This document shows positions 795 to 59,965 of a stretch of 64,000 nucleotides of DNA, piece by piece. The stretch comes from Turneriella parva DSM 21527 (GTDB lineage: Bacteria; Spirochaetota; Leptospiria; Turneriellales; Turneriellaceae). The first letter of the stretch is position 1. Every line of letters starts with the position of its first letter. The DNA is taken from NCBI RefSeq assembly GCF_000266885.1, contig NC_018020.1, positions 310,001-374,000 of the forward strand, written 5' to 3'. A program made the translations under genes and the position numbers. Below the pieces are notes generated by a model. That model saw nothing but the letters and a program-made list of their open reading frames with translations. It did not search any database and was not told where the DNA came from.

Positions 795-2831
795 ATGTGT
801 GGCATATCCGCGATCTTCTCCAAGAACAATTTCCGGAGCGATGAGTTCATCGCCATGACAGACGTCATCCGCCACCGCGGACCTGACGACGAAGGTTATG
901 CGACTGTCTCAGCAACCGGTAAGATTTCTTTTTTCGCGGGCAAAGATACTCCGGCCGCGTGCCGCTCAGCGAGCCAGAAGAAAAAATATCCCTACTTGCC
1001 TGATGCACGGCTAACCGCAAATAGCCTTTCGACGGCGAAGAAAGGCGAAGGCCAGATAATCGCTGCGTTGGGGCACCGCCGCTTATCGATCGTCGACACC
1101 TCCCCGGCGGGTCACCAGCCGATGACATTTGATAACCGCCTGGCAATTGTCTACAACGGCGAAGTCTATAACCACATTGAACTGCGCAACGAGCTAGAAG
1201 CGCGCGGCCGCCGATTCGTCTCGCACAGTGACACTGAAGTCATACTTCAAGCATACGATGAATGGGGAATCGCCTGTCTCTCAAAATTCAATGGTATGTT
1301 CGCCTTTGTGATCTATGACCTGCGCAACGATCATGTTTTCGCGGCGCGTGACCGTTTTGGCGTAAAGCCACTCTACTACTACAGCTCTGGCGATGCCCTC
1401 GCATTCGCGAGCGAGATCAAACAGTTTACGGTGCTCGAGGGCTGGCAGAGCAAACTGAACAGGCGGCGCGGCTATGATTTTCTGGTCTATGGCATTCATG
1501 AACATACTGACGAAACTTTTTTTGAGAACGTGTTTCAGTTTAGCCCAGGCAGCTTTTTCTACGGAAAGCGGGAGGCTTTACTCGGCAACAACCCCAGAAT
1601 TGACACCTCTAAATGGTATATTTTCCCTGCAGAGAAGAAATTCCGAGGTAGCTTTAATGATGCAGCCGCACAGTTTCACGAACTGCTAAAAGATTCGGTA
1701 CGTTTGCGACTAAGAGCCGATGTGCCGGTAGGTTCATGCCTTTCTGGTGGCATGGATTCTTCGGCAATAGTCTGTGTCATGAATGAATTGCTGAAAGAAC
1801 AAGGGGCACATGCCCTGCAGAAAACATTCTCGGCCTGCGCCAAAGAAAAGGCATTTGACGAACGCGAATTCATTGAAGTCGTCGTAAAGCATACCGGGGT
1901 CAAAGGGCACTATATTTATCCACAACTGAAGGATCTATTTCGAATCTCTGACAAAATTCTTTGGCACCAGGATCAACCGTACGGTTCGACGAGTATTTTC
2001 GCACAGTGGAACGTTTTTGCGCTGGCGCACAAGCACCGCGTCAAAGTGATGCTCGATGGGCAAGGGGCCGATGAACAGCTGGGGGGTTACGCCTCGTACT
2101 TTATGCCGTGGCTCGCAAGCCTCGTGCGTAGCTTTCGCTGGCTGAAACTCGCGCAAGAAGCGAAGGCCCTTCACCAGATTCATGGGGTCAATATGGGGCG
2201 GCTATCCTGGTTTGCCGCCAATACGTTACTGCCCATGCCTGTCCGCTCGTACCTGAAGAAGCATCTACGCGGCGTAAAACTGGCGCCAGACTGGCTTCAT
2301 ATGGAAAGACTGGGTTTTGATGCATACGATCTGCCCCGGCAGCTGGGTATAACCACGAGCAGGTCGATTCGCGACCTGAGCCTTTCGCAGCTCACGGGTT
2401 CGAATCTGCAGATGCTGCTGCATTACGAAGACCGCGACTCGATGGCACATTCTGTCGAGTCGCGCGTACCCTTTCTCGACTACAGACTTGTCGAACATGT
2501 ATATTCATTACCCGATGACTATAAGATCTATAATGGTCGGACCAAGTTTGTCCTCCGCGAAGGGCTCAAGAATGTATTGCCCGAGAAGATTTATTCCCGC
2601 AATTCAAAACTCGGCTTCGCCACGCCTGAAGAAATCTGGGTTCGGCAAGACGCCCCCTACGAGTTTAGAAAGCGTCTGAAGGTGGCAGTCGAAACCAGCG
2701 ATGGGCTGATTGACCCGTCGATTCAAGAATTACTGGAACAACAAATCTCTGGTAGGGCAAGTTTTTCTTTTCTCATTTGGCGCATCTTGTCATTCAGTGA
2801 TTGGCTACGAATATTTAGCGCCCAGATTTAG
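795..2831 (+). CDS. asnB: Asparagine synthase (glutamine-hydrolysing), AsnB type
   Basis: A 678-aa class II glutamine amidotransferase. It begins MCGISAIF, so Cys2 becomes the N-terminal nucleophile after Met removal, followed by RHRGPDDEG and the YNGEVYNH glutaminase motifs. The synthetase half carries the pyrophosphate loop SGGMDSSAI near residue 317 and DGQGADEQLGGY. About 40 extra residues (near 50-90, with a Lys-rich stretch) lie between the RGPDDEG and GHRRLSIVD segments, where typical AsnB enzymes are short. Next to a sugar acetyltransferase and a glycosyltransferase it may amidate a sugar acid in the surface polysaccharide instead of making free asparagine. That role is inference. Confidence 0.92.
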   Translation: MCGISAIFSKNNFRSDEFIAMTDVIRHRGPDDEGYATVSATGKISFFAGKDTPAACRSASQKKKYPYLPDARLTANSLSTAKKGEGQIIAALGHRRLSIVDTSPAGHQPMTFDNRLAIVYNGEVYNHIELRNELEARGRRFVSHSDTEVILQAYDEWGIACLSKFNGMFAFVIYDLRNDHVFAARDRFGVKPLYYYSSGDALAFASEIKQFTVLEGWQSKLNRRRGYDFLVYGIHEHTDETFFENVFQFSPGSFFYGKREALLGNNPRIDTSKWYIFPAEKKFRGSFNDAAAQFHELLKDSVRLRLRADVPVGSCLSGGMDSSAIVCVMNELLKEQGAHALQKTFSACAKEKAFDEREFIEVVVKHTGVKGHYIYPQLKDLFRISDKILWHQDQPYGSTSIFAQWNVFALAHKHRVKVMLDGQGADEQLGGYASYFMPWLASLVRSFRWLKLAQEAKALHQIHGVNMGRLSWFAANTLLPMPVRSYLKKHLRGVKLAPDWLHMERLGFDAYDLPRQLGITTSRSIRDLSLSQLTGSNLQMLLHYEDRDSMAHSVESRVPFLDYRLVEHVYSLPDDYKIYNGRTKFVLREGLKNVLPEKIYSRNSKLGFATPEEIWVRQDAPYEFRKRLKVAVETSDGLIDPSIQELLEQQISGRASFSFLIWRILSFSDWLRIFSAQI

Positions 2832-2928
2832 ACCAATGCGGTAACATTCTCTTGATTTCTAATACGCGCTCGCTCGGTAAATTTTTCGAAACATGTTCCA
2901 CTGCATCCAGTCTTCCTGAAAAATATAG

Positions 2929-4239
2929 GTGTCCATGAAAAAAAATGTGCTCTACCTGACCTGGGGAGAGGACCTGCTCACCAGCGGCATTTTGGAAAAC
3001 CAGGTCATTAACCAGCTGATTACGACGCGCCGCGTTTTTCCCCAGGTTTCATACTCTTTTCTCTGCGCTATGCCAGTCTTCTGGAAGAAACGGCATCGCG
3101 CGCAGGCGCAAATCCTGCACGAAAAGATTGATCGCTTGGAAAAAGCAGGAATCCACGTAAAAGTTGTCTACTATTGGCTGCCAGTGCGGGCACGCTACAT
3201 GGCAATAGTGCTGCACCCGCTATTCATCGCAGCATTCTTCTTCTGGCTGAAACAGATCACCAATATCTGCAGGCGTCAAGAAATCCATCTCATCCATGCC
3301 AGGGCATATACTGGCGCCATTGTGGCGGCGGCCGCGAAAAAATTGCTTCGTTTGAAGGTCCCGCTCGTGTTCGATACACGCGGACTCTACGTCGATGAAC
3401 TGCTGCAGCTGGGTTTCCTCAGAGAGGGCAGCTGGTGGCACCGGCAATGGAAAAGGGCGGAGCGCACCACGTATGCCTGCTCAGCCAGTATCATCACCGT
3501 CAGCGAGCCGTTTTCTGAATACGTACGCGAACATTTCTCACTACCTGTCGACAAAGTTCAGACGATTTTCACCAGTGTTGATTCGGACGTATTCACACCT
3601 TCAGTAAAGATCGCCAATGCGCGAATGAGGAGACTTAAGATTGCCGCGCCGGTACTCGCGTATTGCGGAGATCTGGGTGGCAGTAGCTGGCATAGTACTG
3701 CGTCATTGTTTGCCTTATTTGGGCAAGTGCGCCGCAAGTTCAGGAAAGCCAGCCTGCTGGTTATCTCTCCGGCAAGCAGAGAGAGTATTGATCGAGAAGT
3801 GCTGACGCATTTTCCTGACAGAAGAAATGAGCTCATGGCTAATTGCCGGTTTATGCGGACCTACAACGCCAGGGAAACCGCTGCGGCCCTTTCACAGGCA
3901 GACTTTGGAGTATTCAGCTACCACGATTCTGCTAACCGCGGCCCGCGGCACTTGCAGGAAATTGTACTCGGTTCAAAAACGGGCGAATACCTGGCAGCCG
4001 GCCTGCCGATTTTGGTCAACCATACAGCCAAAGCTGCTGCTGCAATAGTTAGAGACCATAGATTGGGAATAGCCTATAATATAGGCGACGTGAAATCATT
4101 GCATCGGCAGTTAGGCGGCCTGGTGAAGCAATGGTCTGCATATTCGCAGCGCTCCCGCAAGTATGCCCTGAATCATTTTGAGGCAGCTAGTATAGCACGA
4201 TCGCACCGCTTAATCTATGAGAGACTAAGCAAGCCCTGA
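2929..4239 (+). CDS. Glycosyltransferase, GT4/GT-B type
   Basis: A 436-aa protein with a GT-B layout: an N-terminal Rossmann half with LIHARAYTGAI and VFDTRGLYVDEL, a linker with ITVSEPFSEYV, and a C-terminal half with GSKTGEYLAAGLPILVN, the E-x7-G signature region of GT4 retaining transferases. A hydrophobic stretch near residues 85-105 could associate with the membrane. The frame opens with GTG at 2929; the ATG at 2935 is an equally good start, and neither has a strong Shine-Dalgarno sequence. It lies 97 bp after asnB and just before an unknown gene. Donor and acceptor sugars cannot be read from the sequence. Confidence 0.85.
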   Translation: MSMKKNVLYLTWGEDLLTSGILENQVINQLITTRRVFPQVSYSFLCAMPVFWKKRHRAQAQILHEKIDRLEKAGIHVKVVYYWLPVRARYMAIVLHPLFIAAFFFWLKQITNICRRQEIHLIHARAYTGAIVAAAAKKLLRLKVPLVFDTRGLYVDELLQLGFLREGSWWHRQWKRAERTTYACSASIITVSEPFSEYVREHFSLPVDKVQTIFTSVDSDVFTPSVKIANARMRRLKIAAPVLAYCGDLGGSSWHSTASLFALFGQVRRKFRKASLLVISPASRESIDREVLTHFPDRRNELMANCRFMRTYNARETAAALSQADFGVFSYHDSANRGPRHLQEIVLGSKTGEYLAAGLPILVNHTAKAAAAIVRDHRLGIAYNIGDVKSLHRQLGGLVKQWSAYSQRSRKYALNHFEAASIARSHRLIYERLSKP

Positions 4240-51645: not shown

Positions 51646-54600
51646 TTACCACAAATTTGGCGTATGCGTGCTGCAGCCGGTGAAAAAGGTCGTCGCCGCA
51701 GCACCGCCGGTCTGAACTCGGTCAGCGCAACCCATCAGGACAGGAAACTCTTGAAGGCCAGTTGTATCGCTTCCCAGCAGGTTGATTACCGTCATTGTGC
51801 TGTTTGATCCGGTGAGATTGCCAAGAATATTACGCCCAATATATACGGAACCAACTCCGCTAAAGTTGAAGTAACCTGCCGGCCAGCCCGCACTGATGTA
51901 TGTTACGCCTTCCTTTATCAGACGTACCATTGCCTCGCGGGCCGAGATATTAGGCGAAGTACTGGCGTAAGTGGCCGCATTGTAGAGTGGCGCCTTCTCC
52001 GTATTCGCAAGCAGCTGCGCCAAGTTGTCAGCAGGTGTTGATAGACTCAGCGCTACCACAGTGCCACCATTTATTTGGCCTACAAGTGCCGTTGCGTTGT
52101 CTCCGTGGCCAGCATACGGACTATCACCAATTATGACGGTGGGGTTTACCGGACAGCCAGTTGCTGCTACGACCTCGTTGATAGCGGTGACAACGCCGCC
52201 GGCAGATACTGTCGCATTATAGCTGCCTGCCGTTGCGCACTCATTTGCGCCAGAGAGAAGCCTCGCAGATATAGTGCCGGGCGTATAACCACAGCCGCTA
52301 TTCGTGATGGTGAAGCTGGTAATGGCACCGGTACCGACGTTCACGTTTGCCTTAGCTTGGGCCCCGCCGCCGATGGTAACGACCTGGTTATCAATGTAGC
52401 TGGTCCCACCCGTGATGGCTGAACATCCTGTCACCGCGCCAGCCGTGACCTGAACGGTACATGTTGCGCCGCTGCCACCGGCACCAATAACCGGGCAAAC
52501 CTGGCCGTTTACGTATCCCGAACCGCCATTGAAGTTCGTGAGACCCGTGCCCGGCGTGGTGTTTATGGGCCCGGCAACAAGGGCTGTAGCCTGGGCGCCT
52601 GTACCGCCACTGCCAGTCATGGGTGCACCCGAGATCAAGAAGCTATCTGTGTAGCCAGTGCCCCCGTTTGTTACGCTGAAGCCGATGATTCCGCCTGTAG
52701 CATATGTGAGGGTCGGCGCTGTGGCGGGTGCGGGCACAAAAGTAAATGTCGGTGCCGTGCAGCCACCAGTACCATTATTCGTCAAATAAACCCCGACAAC
52801 CTGAAAGTTCGCAGTGCCATCAATGCGGGCCCCTACAACCCGCGCCTCTGCGCCGGGGCAGGTGCCGCCGATTGTTAAACCTGTAGGCATCGCGGTGAAT
52901 GAGCCACCAGCAGTCAATGTGAGACGAGTTAATGTCGTCCCGGATGGCGCGGGCGAGACGATGCTTTGAGCAATGGCACCACTGCCACCGCCAGCCGTCG
53001 TTGTTGCGCCGCTAATGGTGATAGAACCAGTATAACCTGATCCCCCGGCCATCGCCAACGAGCCAATCAGCGCGTTCATATCAGCAACACCAACACCAGA
53101 GGTCGACGTGACACCGCCTGCATTTGCTGTCGTCGTGCCAGTGCCAGCAGTTGTGATATCAATCACTGCTCCGCCGCGCGTGGTGCCAACACGAATATTG
53201 TTCGCATCTACAACCGTCACGACGAAATACGCCTGCCCGGAGACCAGCGGCGCGGGTAACGTGCCGCCCACATTCGAAAATATGACCAGGCGATCGACGG
53301 CGAGACCGTGGCCAGCCCAGGTTATATTTTCGTTTGCCGGCGTAGCCGTGACTACTGCTGGGACAGTCCCAAGAGTCGCGTGTGTCGCCATGAGCTGAGC
53401 GATCAACTCGTGGTCAGGCCCTGGGAAGGTAGCCGTCGGGGTCTCGTAAGCACTCCCAATCGCCCCGATCAGAGATACCAGCTTGCTAATCTCTCCCCTT
53501 GGCAGGTTGTTCATCAATGCGACGAGATCGGTAGTCGATGTGCCATAGCGTACGTCCGTAACACCATTGAGAAGCCCAACAATATTTGATGAGCTAACAG
53601 TCTGATTGATGAGATCGGCCATCTTGTTGATATCCAAGACGTCATTGAGAAGATTTTTGAGCTGCACCATCGCTGCAGACGTGGTCGCGCCTGAGATGAA
53701 CTCAATTACGTTGACCATCTTGCCCATACCGGTTGCGTTACCCGAAGGATTACCACGCCCCGGAACAGTGCCTGGCAGAAATGCGTTCGCGCCCGTAACT
53801 GTGTTGATGAGCACCGCTAGCTTACCTGTCCCGTTATCTGGTGCCGTGCCGATTGCCATGAATGACACGAGCTTCGACATTCTGATAATTGAGCTCACGT
53901 TTTCGGTTACGAATACCAGCTGAGAAATGGTCGTCGTATTCTCCACAATCTTGACCAGGCGACGGCCGCCGGCAGAGAGAGCTGCGGTATTGAGCGCATC
54001 ACCTGCGGGACCGCGTGGATACACATGAACATCCGCATCGTTGTGCTGAGAGTAGGTAGACACATGATTCACTAAATCAATAATTTTCGCTGGGGTTATG
54101 CTATCGATCATCGTGACGAGCTTTGTGGAGGAGGTCACGTTTTCGACCAAATGAACCAGAGTCAAAACAGCCCTATCGCGTTCGCCCCAGAAAGCACCGT
54201 TGCCAGATGCTTCACACAACCCCGCGTCAGAAGCGGTTGTGTTAGCAGCGCCAAGATTATATTGGTAATCTGCGCCACTGGCCTGCGTTGCAGAATTGCC
54301 GTCGGCATCACTTGAAGCACCATTTGAGCAACCTGGTATCTCTGATTGTTTGAAGATGCCATTAATGACCGTCGCGAGATTCGTCGTATTCGTAACGCCC
54401 CAAATCAGGTCGATAATCTTATCTGTGTTTGTTACGCCATTGAGCAAATCACCGACCTTGAGAGGCCCTTCTTGCGCTTGTGACAACGTCTGCATCAATA
54501 CGCGTAATTTGCCCAAGTAGGTGGTTGTCAGCGACGCATCAGCCTGGAACGCCTCGTTGAGATTATCAAAAGTGCGCTGTCCGTCCATCACTTGCACGAG

Positions 54601-56490
54601 ACGAGGTACATTTGCTGGGTTCAATAGTTCTACAACCTGAACAAGGTTATTCATGTCGTTATTAACTTGCATCGAGGTAATGACACCACCTGCGAACTGT
54701 GCGGTGATGGTCATGCCTGAGCACCCGCTGACAGCAAAGGTCGTGGCAGCGCTGATACCTGACGACCCGCCAGGTGTGACGACTGAGATATAGGCAATAC
54801 GCTGGCCGACGATAAAAGCCTTTATCGTGCCCGCAGTGATAGTACCACCACCACCCGAGACAGTCACATCGTCAGACCCGTCAACAACCGTGCAGGTCGC
54901 GGCGCCAGCAGTACCGCCGAGGTTATTGAGCAGATCATAAACATCATTCGCATTTTTGAGATCTTGGACGAGCTGAACCATTTTGGTCATGCTCGAGACA
55001 CCATCGACGAGGTTCATGACCTTGTAATAAGAAGCCGCCGGGGTAACGCCGTTGATAATATCTGCGAGGCGAGCCACAGTCGTTTTTGAAGATGCTGGCG
55101 TCACGGCAGTGAGGGTCTTGGGACCGTCGGCACCACAACCCGAACCAGCGGAGACGACATAATGCCCAGTTGTCTGAATAATACCGCCCAGAACATTCAA
55201 GTGAATGGTCGGCTGTACGGTACAACCGGTCACGCTGACTGTAACTCCCGGCAGGTAGTTAGTGCCGCCGCTGCCACCACCAATAGTAAAAGCGCCGACT
55301 GGAATATTTCCTGCGCCGCCAGTCACGGTATAGGTATGAGTTAAACCGGCACCTGCAGTGCTAAACGGCAAACCGCGGGATGCCGGGCCACCCGGACCAA
55401 CACCCCAGGTCTCAGCCGGCGAAACCTGGCCTGTCCAGGTAGCACCATCTTCAGCCAGATTCAAGAAACTCCCAAGATTTGTGGGTGAGAGAACGTTGTT
55501 CATGATATTAATCAGAGTATCAGTATTAGTAACGTTGTTGATCAGATACCCCATTTTTGTGCCATCGCTCACGGCGTTGACTACCGGAACCAACTTTGCT
55601 GTAACGTTTGCAACCGTGACGCCAGCGATTGTTGAATATCCGCCGACAGGCGTCGTACTCAGCAATGCCCGCATTCTCTGAATGTCCGACGTAGACTCCA
55701 TAATTTCGACGAGCCTGTTTGCGTTCGAGACGCCCTTGATCATGGGTGCAAGCTTGTTTGTAACATCAGCTGCCGACAGGTTAGTCAAGAGGGGACAAAG
55801 CTTCAGTGCACACGATGAAACGCCCGGCTGGACGTGCGCGACAATTTTCGCGAGTCGCTGAACATAAGCCTGTTGATTCGCGGGGGTTTCAGTTGTTGCG
55901 ACTGCGAGACTCCGTGACAAATCAAATCCAGCAGGACCCATTAGATCAACGAGCTTTGCTTGCACTTCGGAAACGGGATTGAGCGTATTGATAATTGCGG
56001 CCAAATTGCCGACTGTATCTTGGTCGCTAGGAACCGCGCCACCAGCAGTGTTGACATTGGCAGAAATGGTAGTCGTCATTTCAATATCAACCTGCTTGAT
56101 AAGATAAAGAGTTATTATTGCACCCAAACCGGTTCGCCCGCCCGGTCCCGTACCGACAATCAGGTCGTTGCCGATGAGGGCAACAAATTTTGAAGTGGCG
56201 GCTGCACCTGAGCCTGTGGTGATTTGCTCTATGAGTTGCACGAGGTTTGAGACACCAATACCATACGCCAGCAAATTGAGACTGTCTTGGCCGATACCAG
56301 CATAGAGCTGATCAGTTTTTTCTTGGCCGACGAGTGCCACCCATTCTTCATAGGTCGGTGCGGCTTTGCCTGCGTCGTTTTCCATATTTTGTGCGAATTT
56401 GGTCTTTGATGACCTTGCACAATTGAGAGCGAAAGCTGCTGCTGCCACGAGTAACAGACCTGCCTTCAGGTGTCTCTTGAATTTGCTCAT
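51646..56490 (-). CDS. Giant repeat lipoprotein B
   Basis: 1614 aa from ATG 56490, which has GGAG six bases upstream (ATG 56502 adds four residues). Signal LKAGLLLVAAAAFALNCARSS, Cys near residue 24 as lipobox. Helical repeats of about 13 residues are strongest near 690 and 970 (NGVTNTDKIIDLI, WGVTNTTNLATVI, NGVTDVRYGTSTTDLV). Residues about 1050-1100 (GHGLAVDRLVIFSNVGGTLP, AYFVVTVVDANNIRVGTT) resemble a module I know from phage tail proteins. Residues about 1150-1430 carry GSGY-type repeats with GGGSGA. The C-terminus (NISAREAMVRLIKEGVT, MGCADR) matches giant A. Same plan as giant A but longer, with different central inserts. Surface adhesin-like role is inferred. Confidence 0.82.
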   Translation of the reverse strand: MSKFKRHLKAGLLLVAAAAFALNCARSSKTKFAQNMENDAGKAAPTYEEWVALVGQEKTDQLYAGIGQDSLNLLAYGIGVSNLVQLIEQITTGSGAAATSKFVALIGNDLIVGTGPGGRTGLGAIITLYLIKQVDIEMTTTISANVNTAGGAVPSDQDTVGNLAAIINTLNPVSEVQAKLVDLMGPAGFDLSRSLAVATTETPANQQAYVQRLAKIVAHVQPGVSSCALKLCPLLTNLSAADVTNKLAPMIKGVSNANRLVEIMESTSDIQRMRALLSTTPVGGYSTIAGVTVANVTAKLVPVVNAVSDGTKMGYLINNVTNTDTLINIMNNVLSPTNLGSFLNLAEDGATWTGQVSPAETWGVGPGGPASRGLPFSTAGAGLTHTYTVTGGAGNIPVGAFTIGGGSGGTNYLPGVTVSVTGCTVQPTIHLNVLGGIIQTTGHYVVSAGSGCGADGPKTLTAVTPASSKTTVARLADIINGVTPAASYYKVMNLVDGVSSMTKMVQLVQDLKNANDVYDLLNNLGGTAGAATCTVVDGSDDVTVSGGGGTITAGTIKAFIVGQRIAYISVVTPGGSSGISAATTFAVSGCSGMTITAQFAGGVITSMQVNNDMNNLVQVVELLNPANVPRLVQVMDGQRTFDNLNEAFQADASLTTTYLGKLRVLMQTLSQAQEGPLKVGDLLNGVTNTDKIIDLIWGVTNTTNLATVINGIFKQSEIPGCSNGASSDADGNSATQASGADYQYNLGAANTTASDAGLCEASGNGAFWGERDRAVLTLVHLVENVTSSTKLVTMIDSITPAKIIDLVNHVSTYSQHNDADVHVYPRGPAGDALNTAALSAGGRRLVKIVENTTTISQLVFVTENVSSIIRMSKLVSFMAIGTAPDNGTGKLAVLINTVTGANAFLPGTVPGRGNPSGNATGMGKMVNVIEFISGATTSAAMVQLKNLLNDVLDINKMADLINQTVSSSNIVGLLNGVTDVRYGTSTTDLVALMNNLPRGEISKLVSLIGAIGSAYETPTATFPGPDHELIAQLMATHATLGTVPAVVTATPANENITWAGHGLAVDRLVIFSNVGGTLPAPLVSGQAYFVVTVVDANNIRVGTTRGGAVIDITTAGTGTTTANAGGVTSTSGVGVADMNALIGSLAMAGGSGYTGSITISGATTTAGGGSGAIAQSIVSPAPSGTTLTRLTLTAGGSFTAMPTGLTIGGTCPGAEARVVGARIDGTANFQVVGVYLTNNGTGGCTAPTFTFVPAPATAPTLTYATGGIIGFSVTNGGTGYTDSFLISGAPMTGSGGTGAQATALVAGPINTTPGTGLTNFNGGSGYVNGQVCPVIGAGGSGATCTVQVTAGAVTGCSAITGGTSYIDNQVVTIGGGAQAKANVNVGTGAITSFTITNSGCGYTPGTISARLLSGANECATAGSYNATVSAGGVVTAINEVVAATGCPVNPTVIIGDSPYAGHGDNATALVGQINGGTVVALSLSTPADNLAQLLANTEKAPLYNAATYASTSPNISAREAMVRLIKEGVTYISAGWPAGYFNFSGVGSVYIGRNILGNLTGSNSTMTVINLLGSDTTGLQEFPVLMGCADRVQTGGAAATTFFTGCSTHTPNLW

Positions 56491-56502
56491 TGTTGTCTCC
56501 AT

Positions 56503-56684: not shown

Positions 56685-56711
56685 CGTTGCCTGAGGTGCT
56701 CGAAGGCAACG
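56685..56711. repeat. REP-like hairpin family A, copy 1
   Basis: Arms CGTTGCCT and AGGCAACG around loop GAGGTGCTCGA. First of five short copies around the GIY-YIG gene. Confidence 0.9.
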
Positions 56712-56723
56712 TGGCATTTCTTG

Positions 56724-56750
56724 CGCTCCCTTCGAGCGCCTCAGGGAGCG
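56724..56750. repeat. REP-like hairpin family A, copy 2 with changed arms
   Basis: Arms CGCTCCCT and AGGGAGCG around loop TCGAGCGCCTC. The loop matches copy 1 in the opposite orientation; arm bases differ from copy 1 at positions that remain paired. Confidence 0.9.
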
Positions 56751-56812: not shown

Positions 56813-56839
56813 CGTTGCCTTCGAGCACCTCAGGCAACG
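56813..56839. repeat. REP-like hairpin family A, copy 3
   Basis: Arms CGTTGCCT and AGGCAACG, loop TCGAGCACCTC. Its right arm is the start of the 22-bp tandem array. A degraded long-form copy precedes it at about 56755-56805. Confidence 0.9.
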
Positions 56840-56937
56840 ATAATTTTGACCTCAGACAACGATAATTTTGACCTCAGACAACGATAATTTTGACCTCAGG
56901 CGACGATAACATTAACCTCAGGCGACGGAGAATTCGG
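56828..56937. repeat. Tandem array of five 22-bp units
   Basis: Units of CCTCAGGCAACG, ATAATTTTGA type, drifting to CCTCAGGCGACG, GAGAATTCGG. The first unit overlaps the right arm of copy 3, so the array grew from a hairpin arm. A similar array follows copy 5. Confidence 0.85.
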
Positions 56938-56962: not shown

Positions 56963-56989
56963 CGCTGGCTGAGGGGCTCGAAGCCAGCG
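56963..56989. repeat. REP-like hairpin family A, copy 4, 5 bp after the GIY-YIG stop
   Basis: Arms CGCTGGCT and AGCCAGCG around loop GAGGGGCTCGA. It differs from copies 1, 3 and 5 in arm bases but keeps perfect pairing and the loop. It forms one end of the putative unit with copy 5 inverted on the other side. Confidence 0.92.
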
Positions 56990-56994
56990 GGCCT

Positions 56995-57288
56995 TCATTT
57001 CGCTTTCGGCTTTGGGTTTGTGTCAGCCAATTTCGGCAAAGTATCATGCTTTTCTGCGATCAAAGCCAGCTTTTTTTCGCGGCGCCATCCCTGTATTTGC
57101 TTCTCTCGCGCATAGGCCACGTCAATGCGATCAGAAAATTCGCAAAACACCAACTTTACTGGTAGCCGCTTGCGTGTATGTTTGGCCCCGAGGCCGGCTT
57201 GGTGTTCAGCCAGGCGCTTTTCGAGGTTCCAAGTACTACCCGTGTAGAGAGAGCCGTCTTGGCATTCAAGTATGTACACCCAGGGCAT
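56995..57288 (-). CDS. Single-domain GIY-YIG nuclease 1, in a REP-like unit
   Basis: A 97-aa protein starting at ATG 57288 (an upstream in-frame ATG at 57321 reads through the repeat). VYILECQDGSLYTG carries the GIY-YIG motif in its VYI/YTG variant; TWNLEKRLAEHQAG has the conserved Arg, and YAREKQIQGWRREKKLALI holds the catalytic Glu. Such domains cut DNA with one metal ion. The gene is bracketed by hairpins of one family: 56963-56989 (5 bp after the stop) and 57297-57323 (8 bp before the start), in inverted orientation. The second half is closely similar to GIY-YIG 2. Confidence 0.85.
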   Translation of the reverse strand: MPWVYILECQDGSLYTGSTWNLEKRLAEHQAGLGAKHTRKRLPVKLVFCEFSDRIDVAYAREKQIQGWRREKKLALIAEKHDTLPKLADTNPKPKAK

Positions 57289-57296
57289 AGTCGATT

Positions 57297-57323
57297 CGTT
57301 GCCTTCGAGCGCCTCAGGCAACG
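57297..57323. repeat. REP-like hairpin family A, copy 5, 8 bp before the GIY-YIG start
   Basis: Arms CGTTGCCT and AGGCAACG, loop TCGAGCGCCTC, opposite in orientation to copy 4. Confidence 0.92.
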
Positions 57324-57400
57324 AAAATTTTTGGTCTTAGGCAACGACAATTTCGGCTTCAGGCAACGATAATTTCAGATTCGGGCAAGCATGATTTTTG
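57312..57400. repeat. Tandem array of four units of 22-23 bp
   Basis: Units such as CTTAGGCAACG, ACAATTTCGG and CTTCAGGCAACG, ATAATTTCAG start in the right arm of copy 5, mirroring the arrangement at 56828-56937 after copy 3. The units decay with distance from the hairpin. Confidence 0.8.
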
Positions 57401-57831: not shown

Positions 57832-58740
57832 ATGAAGTTTATCGTTCTCTCTTTATTAGCAGTTTCGTTTGCATGGGCCGGGTCGGGTAGCTCGACAAAG
57901 CCTCTGCAGGGTTCTTACCCGATTGTGCTCTCTCACGGTGTGCTCGGTTTTGACGACACGAAGGGCCTCGTCGGCGGCCTGATCAAGTATTGGGGCGGCA
58001 TGGACGAACACCTGCGCTCGCAGGGCGCTGCGGTGCTGACGCCGGGCACGAACCCGATGCAGTCGGTGCAAAACCGCGCGAATGACCAGAAGAACCAGAT
58101 TAATCTGTGGATCGCGGCGAACGGCTACAGCAAAGTGCACATTATCGCGCACTCGCAGGGTGCGCTCGTTTCGCGCTATATGACCAGCTCGCTCGGCATG
58201 GCGCCCAAAGTTTCTACAATTACGAGCATCAACGGGGTGAACCGCGGTACGCCCGTGGCGGATATAGCACTTGCTGTTATACCTTCGTGGTTGCAGCCAT
58301 CGGTCAACATCGTCATCAATGTCTTGTCGAAAGTGATCTATGGCAAAACGCAGCAAGACCTGATCGCGATGACTTCATCTCTCACCGTTGCCAATGTCAA
58401 TGCGCTCAACAACACGAACCCTAACATGGCGGGGGTGAAATATTACTCTTATGGCTCGCACATCACGCTGCCCGACCTGATTCAGCACCCGATTATGGGC
58501 CTTGCCTACCCGATCACCTGGACAGGGGGTGTCTTTAACGGCCAGGGCGGTACTAACGACGGCGTTGTGCCGCTGTCGTCACAGAAGTGGGGCACCTGGA
58601 AAGGCGGCCCGTCTTATGGCATTTTCACCACGGGCGTCGACCACATTCAGGCAACCAACTTTTCGTACATGGGTGAAACCTGGTACAACGTGCGCCAGTA
58701 TTACCTGACGATGGCGTCGAACGCGAAGAGCAATCAGTAA
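57832..58740 (+). CDS. Secreted triacylglycerol lipase (Pseudomonas-type, alpha/beta hydrolase)
   Basis: Start ATG 57832, preceded by GGGAG, giving 302 residues. Signal peptide MKFIVLSLLAVSFAWAG. The oxyanion segment is PIVLSHGVLGFDD, the nucleophile elbow IIAHSQGALVSRY (Ser), and the late acid and His are in GTNDGVVPLSSQKWG and TGVDHIQATNF. This is the pattern of lipase family I.1/I.2 with VNRGTPVAD after the nucleophile. It hydrolyses long-chain triacylglycerols outside the inner membrane. No lipase foldase gene is in the window. Flanked by repeat elements on both sides. Confidence 0.9.
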   Translation: MKFIVLSLLAVSFAWAGSGSSTKPLQGSYPIVLSHGVLGFDDTKGLVGGLIKYWGGMDEHLRSQGAAVLTPGTNPMQSVQNRANDQKNQINLWIAANGYSKVHIIAHSQGALVSRYMTSSLGMAPKVSTITSINGVNRGTPVADIALAVIPSWLQPSVNIVINVLSKVIYGKTQQDLIAMTSSLTVANVNALNNTNPNMAGVKYYSYGSHITLPDLIQHPIMGLAYPITWTGGVFNGQGGTNDGVVPLSSQKWGTWKGGPSYGIFTTGVDHIQATNFSYMGETWYNVRQYYLTMASNAKSNQ

Positions 58741-58818: not shown

Positions 58819-58845
58819 GTCACCCTGAGCTTGTCGAAGGGTGGC
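58819..58845. repeat. REP-like hairpin family B, copy 1
   Basis: Arms GTCACCCT and AGGGTGGC (one mismatch) with loop GAGCTTGTCGA. Confidence 0.88.
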
Positions 58846-58853
58846 TAACGAAG

Positions 58854-58880
58854 GTCATGGTTCGACAGGCTCACCATGAC
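58854..58880. repeat. REP-like hairpin family B, copy 2 with changed arms
   Basis: Arms GTCATGGT and ACCATGAC with loop TCGACAGGCTC. Differs from copy 1 in arm bases but pairs fully. Confidence 0.9.
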
Positions 58881-58904
58881 AAAGTATCAAAACAGAAAAG
58901 TTTT

Positions 58905-58931
58905 GTCACCCTGAGCCTGTCGAAGGGTGAC
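58905..58931. repeat. REP-like hairpin family B, copy 3
   Basis: Arms GTCACCCT and AGGGTGAC with loop GAGCCTGTCGA. It is the short copy nearest the stop of GIY-YIG 2. Confidence 0.92.
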
Positions 58932-58949
58932 CTGAAAACAATTCGGGGC

Positions 58950-59005
58950 ATGTCATCTTGCGACCTGTTTCAGGTCTACGTCTGCGGAGCTCGTCGAAGG
59001 GTGAC
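58950..59005. repeat. Long-form family B element overlapping the end of GIY-YIG 2
   Basis: GTCATCTTGCGACC, TTTCAGGTCTACGTC and TGCGGAGCTCGTCGAAGGGTGAC. It covers the last codons of the nuclease gene, so the C-terminal residues (RHPSTSSADVDLKQVAR) are repeat-encoded. Confidence 0.75.
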
Positions 59006-59294
59006 GTGCCGTTTTCGCCAGCTTTGGCAAATCTTCAAACCGCCCCTCAATCAGCGCGAGCTTTTTCTCGCGACGCCATTTCTTAATGCGCTTTTCCATT
59101 GCAAGGGCTTCAGCGGGTGAAGTGAACTGCTGAGCGAAGACCAACCGGACGGGTAAGCGCGTGCTGGTAAAACCTGTCGCAGATTGAAAATCATTGTGCA
59201 GGGCAACTCGCCGTTCAACATCATGAGTTACGCCAGTATAGTATGAACCATCAGCGCATTCTACTATATAGACTGATAGTTTGCGCCGGGGCAT
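58953..59294 (-). CDS. Single-domain GIY-YIG nuclease 2, in a REP-like unit
   Basis: A 113-aa protein from ATG 59294. SVYIVECADGSYYTG is the GIY-YIG motif; DVERRVALHN has the conserved Arg, and AEALAMEKRIKKWRREKKLALI the catalytic Glu. WRREKKLALI and the LPKLA segment near the end are shared with GIY-YIG 1. The last 17 residues after KLAKTA read through a long-form family B repeat. Upstream, a family B hairpin (59305-59331) lies 10 bp before the start, and 58905-58931 lies on the other side in inverted orientation. It is probably a nuclease of a repeat-mobilising unit. Confidence 0.85.
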   Translation of the reverse strand: MPRRKLSVYIVECADGSYYTGVTHDVERRVALHNDFQSATGFTSTRLPVRLVFAQQFTSPAEALAMEKRIKKWRREKKLALIEGRFEDLPKLAKTARHPSTSSADVDLKQVAR

Positions 59295-59304
59295 CTGGCG
59301 TCAA

Positions 59305-59331
59305 GTCATGCTTCGACGGGCTCAGCATGAC
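59305..59331. repeat. REP-like hairpin family B, copy 4, 10 bp before GIY-YIG 2
   Basis: Arms GTCATGCT and AGCATGAC with loop TCGACGGGCTC. Orientation is opposite to copy 3. Confidence 0.92.
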
Positions 59332-59353: not shown

Positions 59354-59965
59354 TCAAAAATAAAAGCTATACATTCCGGCTGCACGCAGGCCGCCTGTGG
59401 CATCGGGAAACATCTCATAGCGCGGGCCTGAGCGGCGTTTTGCCGCGTCGGCCAGAGACCATGTGTGCGTAGCGCTCAAGAAGCGTAGCGCGACGTTGGT
59501 AACAATCGACACGGCGAAAAAGAGTTGGCCGCGTTCGGCGCGGTTCTTGATATCTTGCAGCGACAGATAATCGCTGCCGCCGGCCGGGTCGGCAAACTGC
59601 AACGGGTCGGGCTCTGACCTCTGCCTCAGCTCTGCGGCGACATACGCCGATTCATAAAACTGCCAGTTGCGGTACGCGACGTAGATGAGACCCAGGTTTA
59701 CCAGATTGCTGCTGAAATAGAGCGCGGCATAACCGGTTTCATTGTGCCGGTACATGCCATAGCCCGGCAACAGAAAGTCGATCGCCGCCATCTGCAGCGG
59801 TGCAGCAGGTTGCACGCTGTCGGCGGGCACGAAACGCGCGCGTGCAGCTTCGGGCGGCGCTGCGTGAACGCTACCCGCAGCGGTCAGCATGAAACATAAC
59901 ATGAAGGTGGCAGACTGCAGCACGCGAAGAGCGCGCGAAGAAACACGCAATCCGCGATATTTCAT
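59354..59965 (-). CDS. Membrane protein of unknown function, third gene of the MBL-MlaE operon
   Basis: A 203-aa protein with an N-terminal signal or helix (ALRVLQSATFMLCFMLTAAGSVHA, cleaved near HAAPP) and hydrophobic segments IDFLLPGYGMYRHNETGYAALYFSSNLVNLGLIYVAYRNW and FFAVSIVTNVALRFLS. The YFSSN and LLPGYGMYR patterns are like small membrane proteins of the DUF5683 kind, but I am not sure. It overlaps mlaE by 4 bp (ATGA). Role in lipid transport is suggested only by position. Confidence 0.65.
   Translation of the reverse strand: MKYRGLRVSSRALRVLQSATFMLCFMLTAAGSVHAAPPEAARARFVPADSVQPAAPLQMAAIDFLLPGYGMYRHNETGYAALYFSSNLVNLGLIYVAYRNWQFYESAYVAAELRQRSEPDPLQFADPAGGSDYLSLQDIKNRAERGQLFFAVSIVTNVALRFLSATHTWSLADAAKRRSGPRYEMFPDATGGLRAAGMYSFYF

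Follow-up and report, generated by a model that had tools for sequence, protein, structure and literature searches.

Small GIY-YIG nuclease genes and their flanking hairpins in Turneriella parva: a candidate REP-like system without a RAYT

Two described systems come close to the locus considered here. The RAYT (TnpA_REP) proteins, with their REP, BIME and REPIN sequences, combine a nuclease gene lying between inverted hairpins with copies of those hairpins, in inverted pairs, throughout the genome. The second system is that of Ssn (site-specific single-strand nucleases) in Neisseria, reportedly published in Nature Communications in 2025: these GIY-YIG nucleases are reported to cut single-stranded DNA at NTS repeats and to have thousands of homologues, and here too a stand-alone GIY-YIG protein of small size goes with a repeat present in many copies around genes. 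The first-pass annotation of the present locus knew of no described REP system built on a GIY-YIG enzyme; the view that none has been described is probably wrong, Ssn/NTS being a described relative. Within the set of papers searched, none linked GIY-YIG with REP and none printed the repeat sequences given below; in the RepRanger paper there is no mention of GIY or of RAYT.

The nuclease described here differs from both. RAYT systems are the closest analogue in layout, but here an unrelated GIY-YIG enzyme takes the place of the HUH Y1 transposase, and the constant part of the hairpin is its loop rather than a GTAG/CGTC end tag, which these palindromes lack. Compared with Ssn/NTS, the present hairpins form a superfamily with GAG...CGA loops, the gene lies between direct repeats of an inverted hairpin pair, and the protein has a tail motif that predicts the loop. 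What may be new is the putative code linking tail and loop, together with the placement of the gene between direct repeats.

Two nuclease-hairpin units in the window

The window, that is, the whole stretch of 64,000 nucleotides of Turneriella parva DSM 21527 that was analysed, contains a stand-alone GIY-YIG nuclease gene of 97 aa, P1 (56995-57288, minus strand; Pfam PF01541, E=1.4e-18). It lies between two hairpins in inverted orientation, CGCTGGCT-GAGGGGCTCGA-AGCCAGCG (56963-56989, plus strand), 5 bp beyond the 3' end of the gene, and CGTTGCCT-GAGGCGCTCGA-AGGCAACG (57297-57323, minus strand), 8 bp upstream of its start. This layout of a nuclease gene between inverted 27-nt hairpins had been proposed in the first-pass annotation, with coordinates that proved exact to the base; its description of differing 8-bp arms, perfectly paired around a common loop, is borne out for both hairpins, and the stem of the one at 57297-57323 can be extended to 10 bp. 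Folding of the two as single strands gave z-scores of -3.3 and -3.0. Beyond these, there are three more hairpins of the P1 loop class (56685-56711, plus; 56724-56750, minus; 56813-56839, minus), as well as a complete second unit at 58821-59331.

On the left side of P1 the order is a minus-strand hairpin CGTTGCCT (the one at 56813-56839), half-hairpins in a tandem array of 22-bp units (ACCTCAGGCAACGATAATTTTG x4.6, 56827-56927) and the plus-strand hairpin CGCTGGCT; on the right side it is again a minus-strand hairpin CGTTGCCT, a 22-bp array of similar unit (57314-57397) and the apparently decayed CGCTGGC. As the order of hairpin and array is alike on both sides, P1 lies between direct repeats of a composite, R, with the hairpin at 56813-56839 forming the outer end of its left copy. 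The same plan, (-A, +B), gene, (-A, +B), with arms matching on both sides, is seen in loci L074 and L106. In both P1 arrays the boundary between units falls within the loop and could indicate where a nick is made. The P1 unit adjoins a reading frame of 1618 aa (51646-56502) that begins like a lipoprotein and matches no Pfam family.

The second stand-alone GIY-YIG nuclease gene, P2 (58953-59294, minus strand, 113 aa; PF01541, E=2.1e-13), belongs to a unit 1.7 kb from P1 that also has inverted hairpins, with arms unlike those of P1 and a related loop. All four of its hairpins are of class A (defined below): one with the loop GAGCTTGTCGA (58821-58843, plus), GTCATGGT-GAGCCTGTCGA-ACCATGAC (58854-58880, minus), GTCACCCT-GAGCCTGTCGA-AGGGTGAC as the inner left flank (58905-58931, plus) and GTCATGCT-GAGCCCGTCGA-AGCATGAC as the inner right flank (59305-59331, minus). 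The hairpins of both units have the core TGAGN4TCGA in common. P1 and P2 lie in short reading frames (113 and 115 codons), and they are the strongest of five GIY-YIG matches in the whole genome (4,409,302 bases in two contigs).

GIY-YIG is the only domain found in P1, which has no HUH Y1 transposase domain, and the invariant tyrosines, arginine and glutamate usual for the fold, whose roles follow from what is generally known of GIY-YIG enzymes, are all retained. AlphaFold models had a mean pLDDT of 86.7 for P1 and 90.8 for its homologue at L074, with a low-confidence tail after the last helix. The nearest solved structures are the UPF0213 proteins BH0048 (PDB 1zg2) and EF2693 (1ywl), followed by Slx1; 1zg2 matches the P1 fold with E=1.4e-22 in a profile comparison and E=1.9e-5 in Foldseek. 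The UPF0213 proteins share their fold (~95 aa) and length with P1 and show a detectable sequence kinship to it. What sets the subfamily considered here apart is its hairpins together with a C-terminal tail that matches them; homologues outside the subfamily are without hairpins.

Hairpin copies, loop classes and their association with the nuclease

The P1 loop GAGGNGCTCGA, a subtype seen in the T. parva genome only, occurs in six copies in the window against 0.2 expected. Across the genome there are 39 copies of TGAGGNGCTCGA, as opposed to none of a reversed-pattern control, and most of them form inverted pairs about 20-115 bp apart. The constant part of the hairpin is the loop, while the outer arm consists of CG followed by variable bases. 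Among 31 sites picked by the loop alone, the arms paired at frequencies of 0.94, 0.94, 0.81 and 0.84 at positions 3-6 outward from the loop, compared with 0.50, 0.55, 0.37 and 0.31 after shuffling of the right arms among those sites. Arms that vary and yet remain paired display the covariation expected of a site that is recognised as a folded strand. As in the Ssn system, the repeat is present in many copies, and its putative status as a cognate site is suggested by its association with the gene.

For a wider view, 15 aligned small GIY-YIG proteins were used to scan one genome per species, which gave 80 loci; hairpins were counted if their stem had 5 bp or more and their loop read GAG-N3-7-[TC]CGA. 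In 60 of the 80 loci such a hairpin lay within 300 bp of the gene. Hairpin density within this distance (159 in 46.8 kb) exceeded that at more than 1.5 kb (24 in 537 kb) by 76-fold, so that the test for flank enrichment proposed at first pass came out positive. The share of hairpin-flanked genes in Spirochaetota, taken by growing distance from the subfamily, was 16/18, 9/22, 2/20 and 0/29, and the refuting condition set at first pass is thereby answered in favour of the association. Where hairpins were present on both sides, they followed the order plus, gene, minus in 42 of 64 loci. About a quarter of the close homologues are without these hairpins, and many of those belong to a group with a KK tail (see below).

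Three loop classes are common: A (GAGCYTGTCGA), B (GAGGNNCTCGA) and C (GAGCGNAGYCGA). In a set of 50 whole genomes the class found beside the gene was also multicopy genome-wide, with 3-120 copies of class C in C-flanked genomes (20 out of 20), 2-43 copies of class B in B-flanked genomes against 0-4 in the others, and 2-408 copies of class A in A-flanked genomes. Several classes coexist in some genomes, including that of T. parva. The loci labelled with a loop class span 14 phyla, and in 71 of 90 cases the closest protein from another phylum shared the class, whereas shuffling the labels within phyla gave an expectation of 40 (maximum 56 in 1000 shuffles). The loop class therefore goes with the protein and not with the host alone. 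The clustering with the nuclease clade that the first pass had proposed to look for in the hairpin arms is thus found for the loop class, and together with the flank enrichment it lends strong support to a nuclease-plus-hairpin unit analogous to RAYT/REP.

Similar arrangements with unrelated palindromes were seen around more distant small GIY-YIG genes of Alphaproteobacteria (loci L146, L150, L152 and L153, near 2500-3400): ACCCCGGGCTTGACCCGGGGT and its inverse in Sphingobium (L150), GCCCCGTGCTTGACACGGGGC and its inverse in Novosphingobium (L153), and a RIME-like composite in Sinorhizobium (L146, L152). The Sinorhizobium palindromes resemble the T. parva case in having a repeated composite on both sides, but differ from it in their unrelated hairpin sequence and more distant nuclease. 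One palindrome for one clade may be a general rule for small GIY-YIG proteins. No palindrome recognisable as the Neisseria repeat was found at 30 loci from the order to which L067 belongs.

At five loci (L012, L014, L015, L018 and L178) the nuclease frame continues through the downstream hairpins, which gives repeated peptide tails such as VTERSRSQ; proteins in the databases may carry hairpin-encoded tails of this type.

The C-terminal tail and the hairpin loop

Nearly all alignment columns that are informative on the loop class fall at P1 positions 85-96, in the C-terminal tail. Read from these columns, C-x-N-x-[TS] goes with class C, A-[YH]-R-D with class B and [AS]-[KR]-[NSG] with class A, while a K-K-x-[FWY] tail is found in genes without A, B or C hairpins, often together with a CTCGATACG palindrome. 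In the full table, tail and loop agreed for 50 of the 52 proteins with a class C tail and for all of those with a class A (24 of 24) or class B (12 of 12) tail, and 29 of 30 KK genes were without A, B or C hairpins; a further 43 proteins match no tail motif. At the loci obtained after the motifs had been fixed, a set that contained no class B case, all 17 calls were right (6/6 C, 3/3 A and 8/8 KK), and one of its KK loci (L295) has a hairpin with the unclassed loop GAGTTTATCGA. Another batch (L264-L293) agreed in 9 of 9 cases, its hairpins having been already visible before motif definition.

The CTCGATACG palindromes numbered 20 in 14.4 kb near KK genes and none in 59.4 kb far from them; the surroundings of other genes (81.8 kb) had 3. 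KK-tail homologues beside palindromes with CTCGATACG halves were seen at L019, L091, L139, L180, L296-L299, L301 and L320. These palindromes, in which the outer part is conserved and the inner stem variable, are apparently a fourth hairpin class.

One conceivable cause of the match is that the tail codons overlap the hairpins. This was ruled out, as the tail codons vary synonymously (the cysteine is encoded by TGC in 21 cases and TGT in 25, and 45 of 46 DNA strings are distinct) and a gap of at least 5 nt separates the motifs from the next hairpin of the same class. It is thus the protein that matches the loop, and the match does not arise from repeat sequence extending into the gene.

Pairs of proteins with similar cores and different tail classes provide a natural tail swap, and their loops differed in all 30 pairs. 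In the 18 closest of these the cores (positions 3-80) are 74-87% identical, L111 being without a readable flank; L075 (class B) and L085 (class C) mark the upper end, with cores 87% identical. Conversely, proteins with the same tail and the most distant cores (from 37% identity) had the loop in common in 24 of 25 pairs. A tree built from the cores only gave, at its well-supported branches, between one and four independent contrasts per class, nearly all of them concordant and too few for significance because the core tree is poorly resolved. The tail of P1 itself, LADTNPKPKAK, falls outside all four motifs, and its loop is a subtype of its own, so that the tail rule has been learned from the relatives of P1 and does not cover P1.

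Proposed element, site turnover and competing explanations

Taken together, the flank enrichment, the multicopy loops, the paired arms and the match of tail and loop indicate that the nuclease and its flanking hairpins are very probably an enzyme and its cognate site, in a REP-like system without a RAYT. P1 and P2 would then be small stand-alone GIY-YIG nucleases with the surrounding hairpins as their cognate DNA sites, each hairpin offering a conserved loop on arms of about 8 bp, which could have many sequences provided that they pair. Most likely the enzyme would recognise the hairpin extruded in single-stranded DNA, be it on the lagging strand, during repair or in incoming DNA, and would place a nick in or beside the loop, the short C-terminal tail reading that loop. 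Gene and hairpins would make up a two-part, REP-like selfish element, in which inverted pairs of hairpins spread to new places between genes, and the nuclease gene moves along with them, bounded on each side by a direct repeat of such a pair. GIY-YIG enzymes are hydrolases, not strand-transferases, and the spread would therefore proceed by host repair or recombination of the nicked DNA. Binding, cutting, the single-stranded substrate and mobilisation are what we infer from these patterns, and we regard the explanation as a whole, with P1 and P2 as parts of such an element and the tail as the reader of the loop, as probable.

The unit may be 'repeat-mobilising', as the first-pass name has it: copy number, site turnover and a horizontal-looking pattern were seen, but no insertion event was found. 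The intergenic site of P2, between a lipase-like gene (ending at 58740) and a gene at 59354-59965, measures 614 bp and holds P2 with its class A hairpins. At the orthologous site one congener (G193, locus L235) has an orthologue of P2 and a class A hairpin beside it, whereas in another (G202, locus L234, about 2457-2527) the site is about 71 bp long and, lacking a gene, contains a single inverted pair of class C hairpins. Since the three congeners differ at this site, different elements have been gained or lost there, which is turnover and not a transposition caught in the act. A MITE or insertion sequence would have terminal inverted repeats with a target-site duplication; the unit has inverted hairpins at its two ends, but no clean insertion with such a duplication was found, the congener's site holding a different element. 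In the genus of L097 the gene-hairpin island is missing from relatives that retain the left neighbour; their right neighbour differs, so there is no clean empty site. Among plasmid records, no pair of strains differing in the presence of the unit was found.

Among the competing explanations the most serious, though in our estimate considerably less likely, is a host-serving single-strand nuclease of the Ssn kind, whose hairpins tune DNA uptake, recombination or fork processing and are kept for their benefit. The kind of enzyme and the multicopy flanking palindromes are as in Neisseria Ssn/NTS, and intact nuclease genes are present across many phyla. On the other hand, the distribution is patchy (88 of 296 Spirochaetota and, in the phylum to which L066 belongs, 26 of 350 genomes at E<=1e-15), and the agreement of loop class across phyla and the turnover at one site also argue against it. 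These three observations favour a mobile or selfish element, which may nevertheless be of some use to the host.

A double-strand homing endonuclease, with the hairpins as incidental remnants of its target, is improbable. It would account for the GIY-YIG catalytic domain and for the absence of the gene from the orthologous site of one congener, but P1 has only 97 aa and is intergenic, with no long DNA-binding arm, further domain, intron or intein, and arm pairing that is kept despite sequence change points to a folded form. Even less credit is due to the idea that these are ordinary REPs or BIMEs made by a RAYT, with the GIY-YIG gene as a passenger in repeat-rich intergenic DNA: the copies do come in inverted pairs like BIMEs or REPINs, yet a passenger should show no agreement with the loop class from phylum to phylum and no tail motif from which the loop can be predicted, and no RAYT was seen at the P1/P2 locus. 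Finally, the hairpins might terminate transcription of the nuclease gene and its neighbours, being short GC-rich intergenic stem-loops that at the P2 site lie between convergent genes, but this reading was rejected as scarcely credible, as terminator-like sites were not in excess (2 found against 4.3 in shuffles), termination needs no conserved loop of 11-12 nt, and the match of tail and loop would go unexplained.

Returning to the two-part element, short palindromes with these loops are found in genomes of many phyla, and to our knowledge no enzyme has been identified for them so far. We lean, if only slightly, towards a still broader proposal, in which a widespread selfish REP-like system uses a hydrolytic GIY-YIG enzyme with a swappable tail of about 10 residues that reads the loop by a simple code, and which would explain the common palindromes of the TTCGACAAGCTCAG and TGAGCGNAGYCGA types. 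The small GIY-YIG proteins offer a candidate enzyme with a built-in test, namely the natural pairs in which cores of up to 87% identity go with different tails and loops. Should the code prove true in vitro, it would explain a large class of bacterial repeats, provide a second, non-RAYT route to REP-like elements and yield tiny nucleases with a predictable hairpin specificity.
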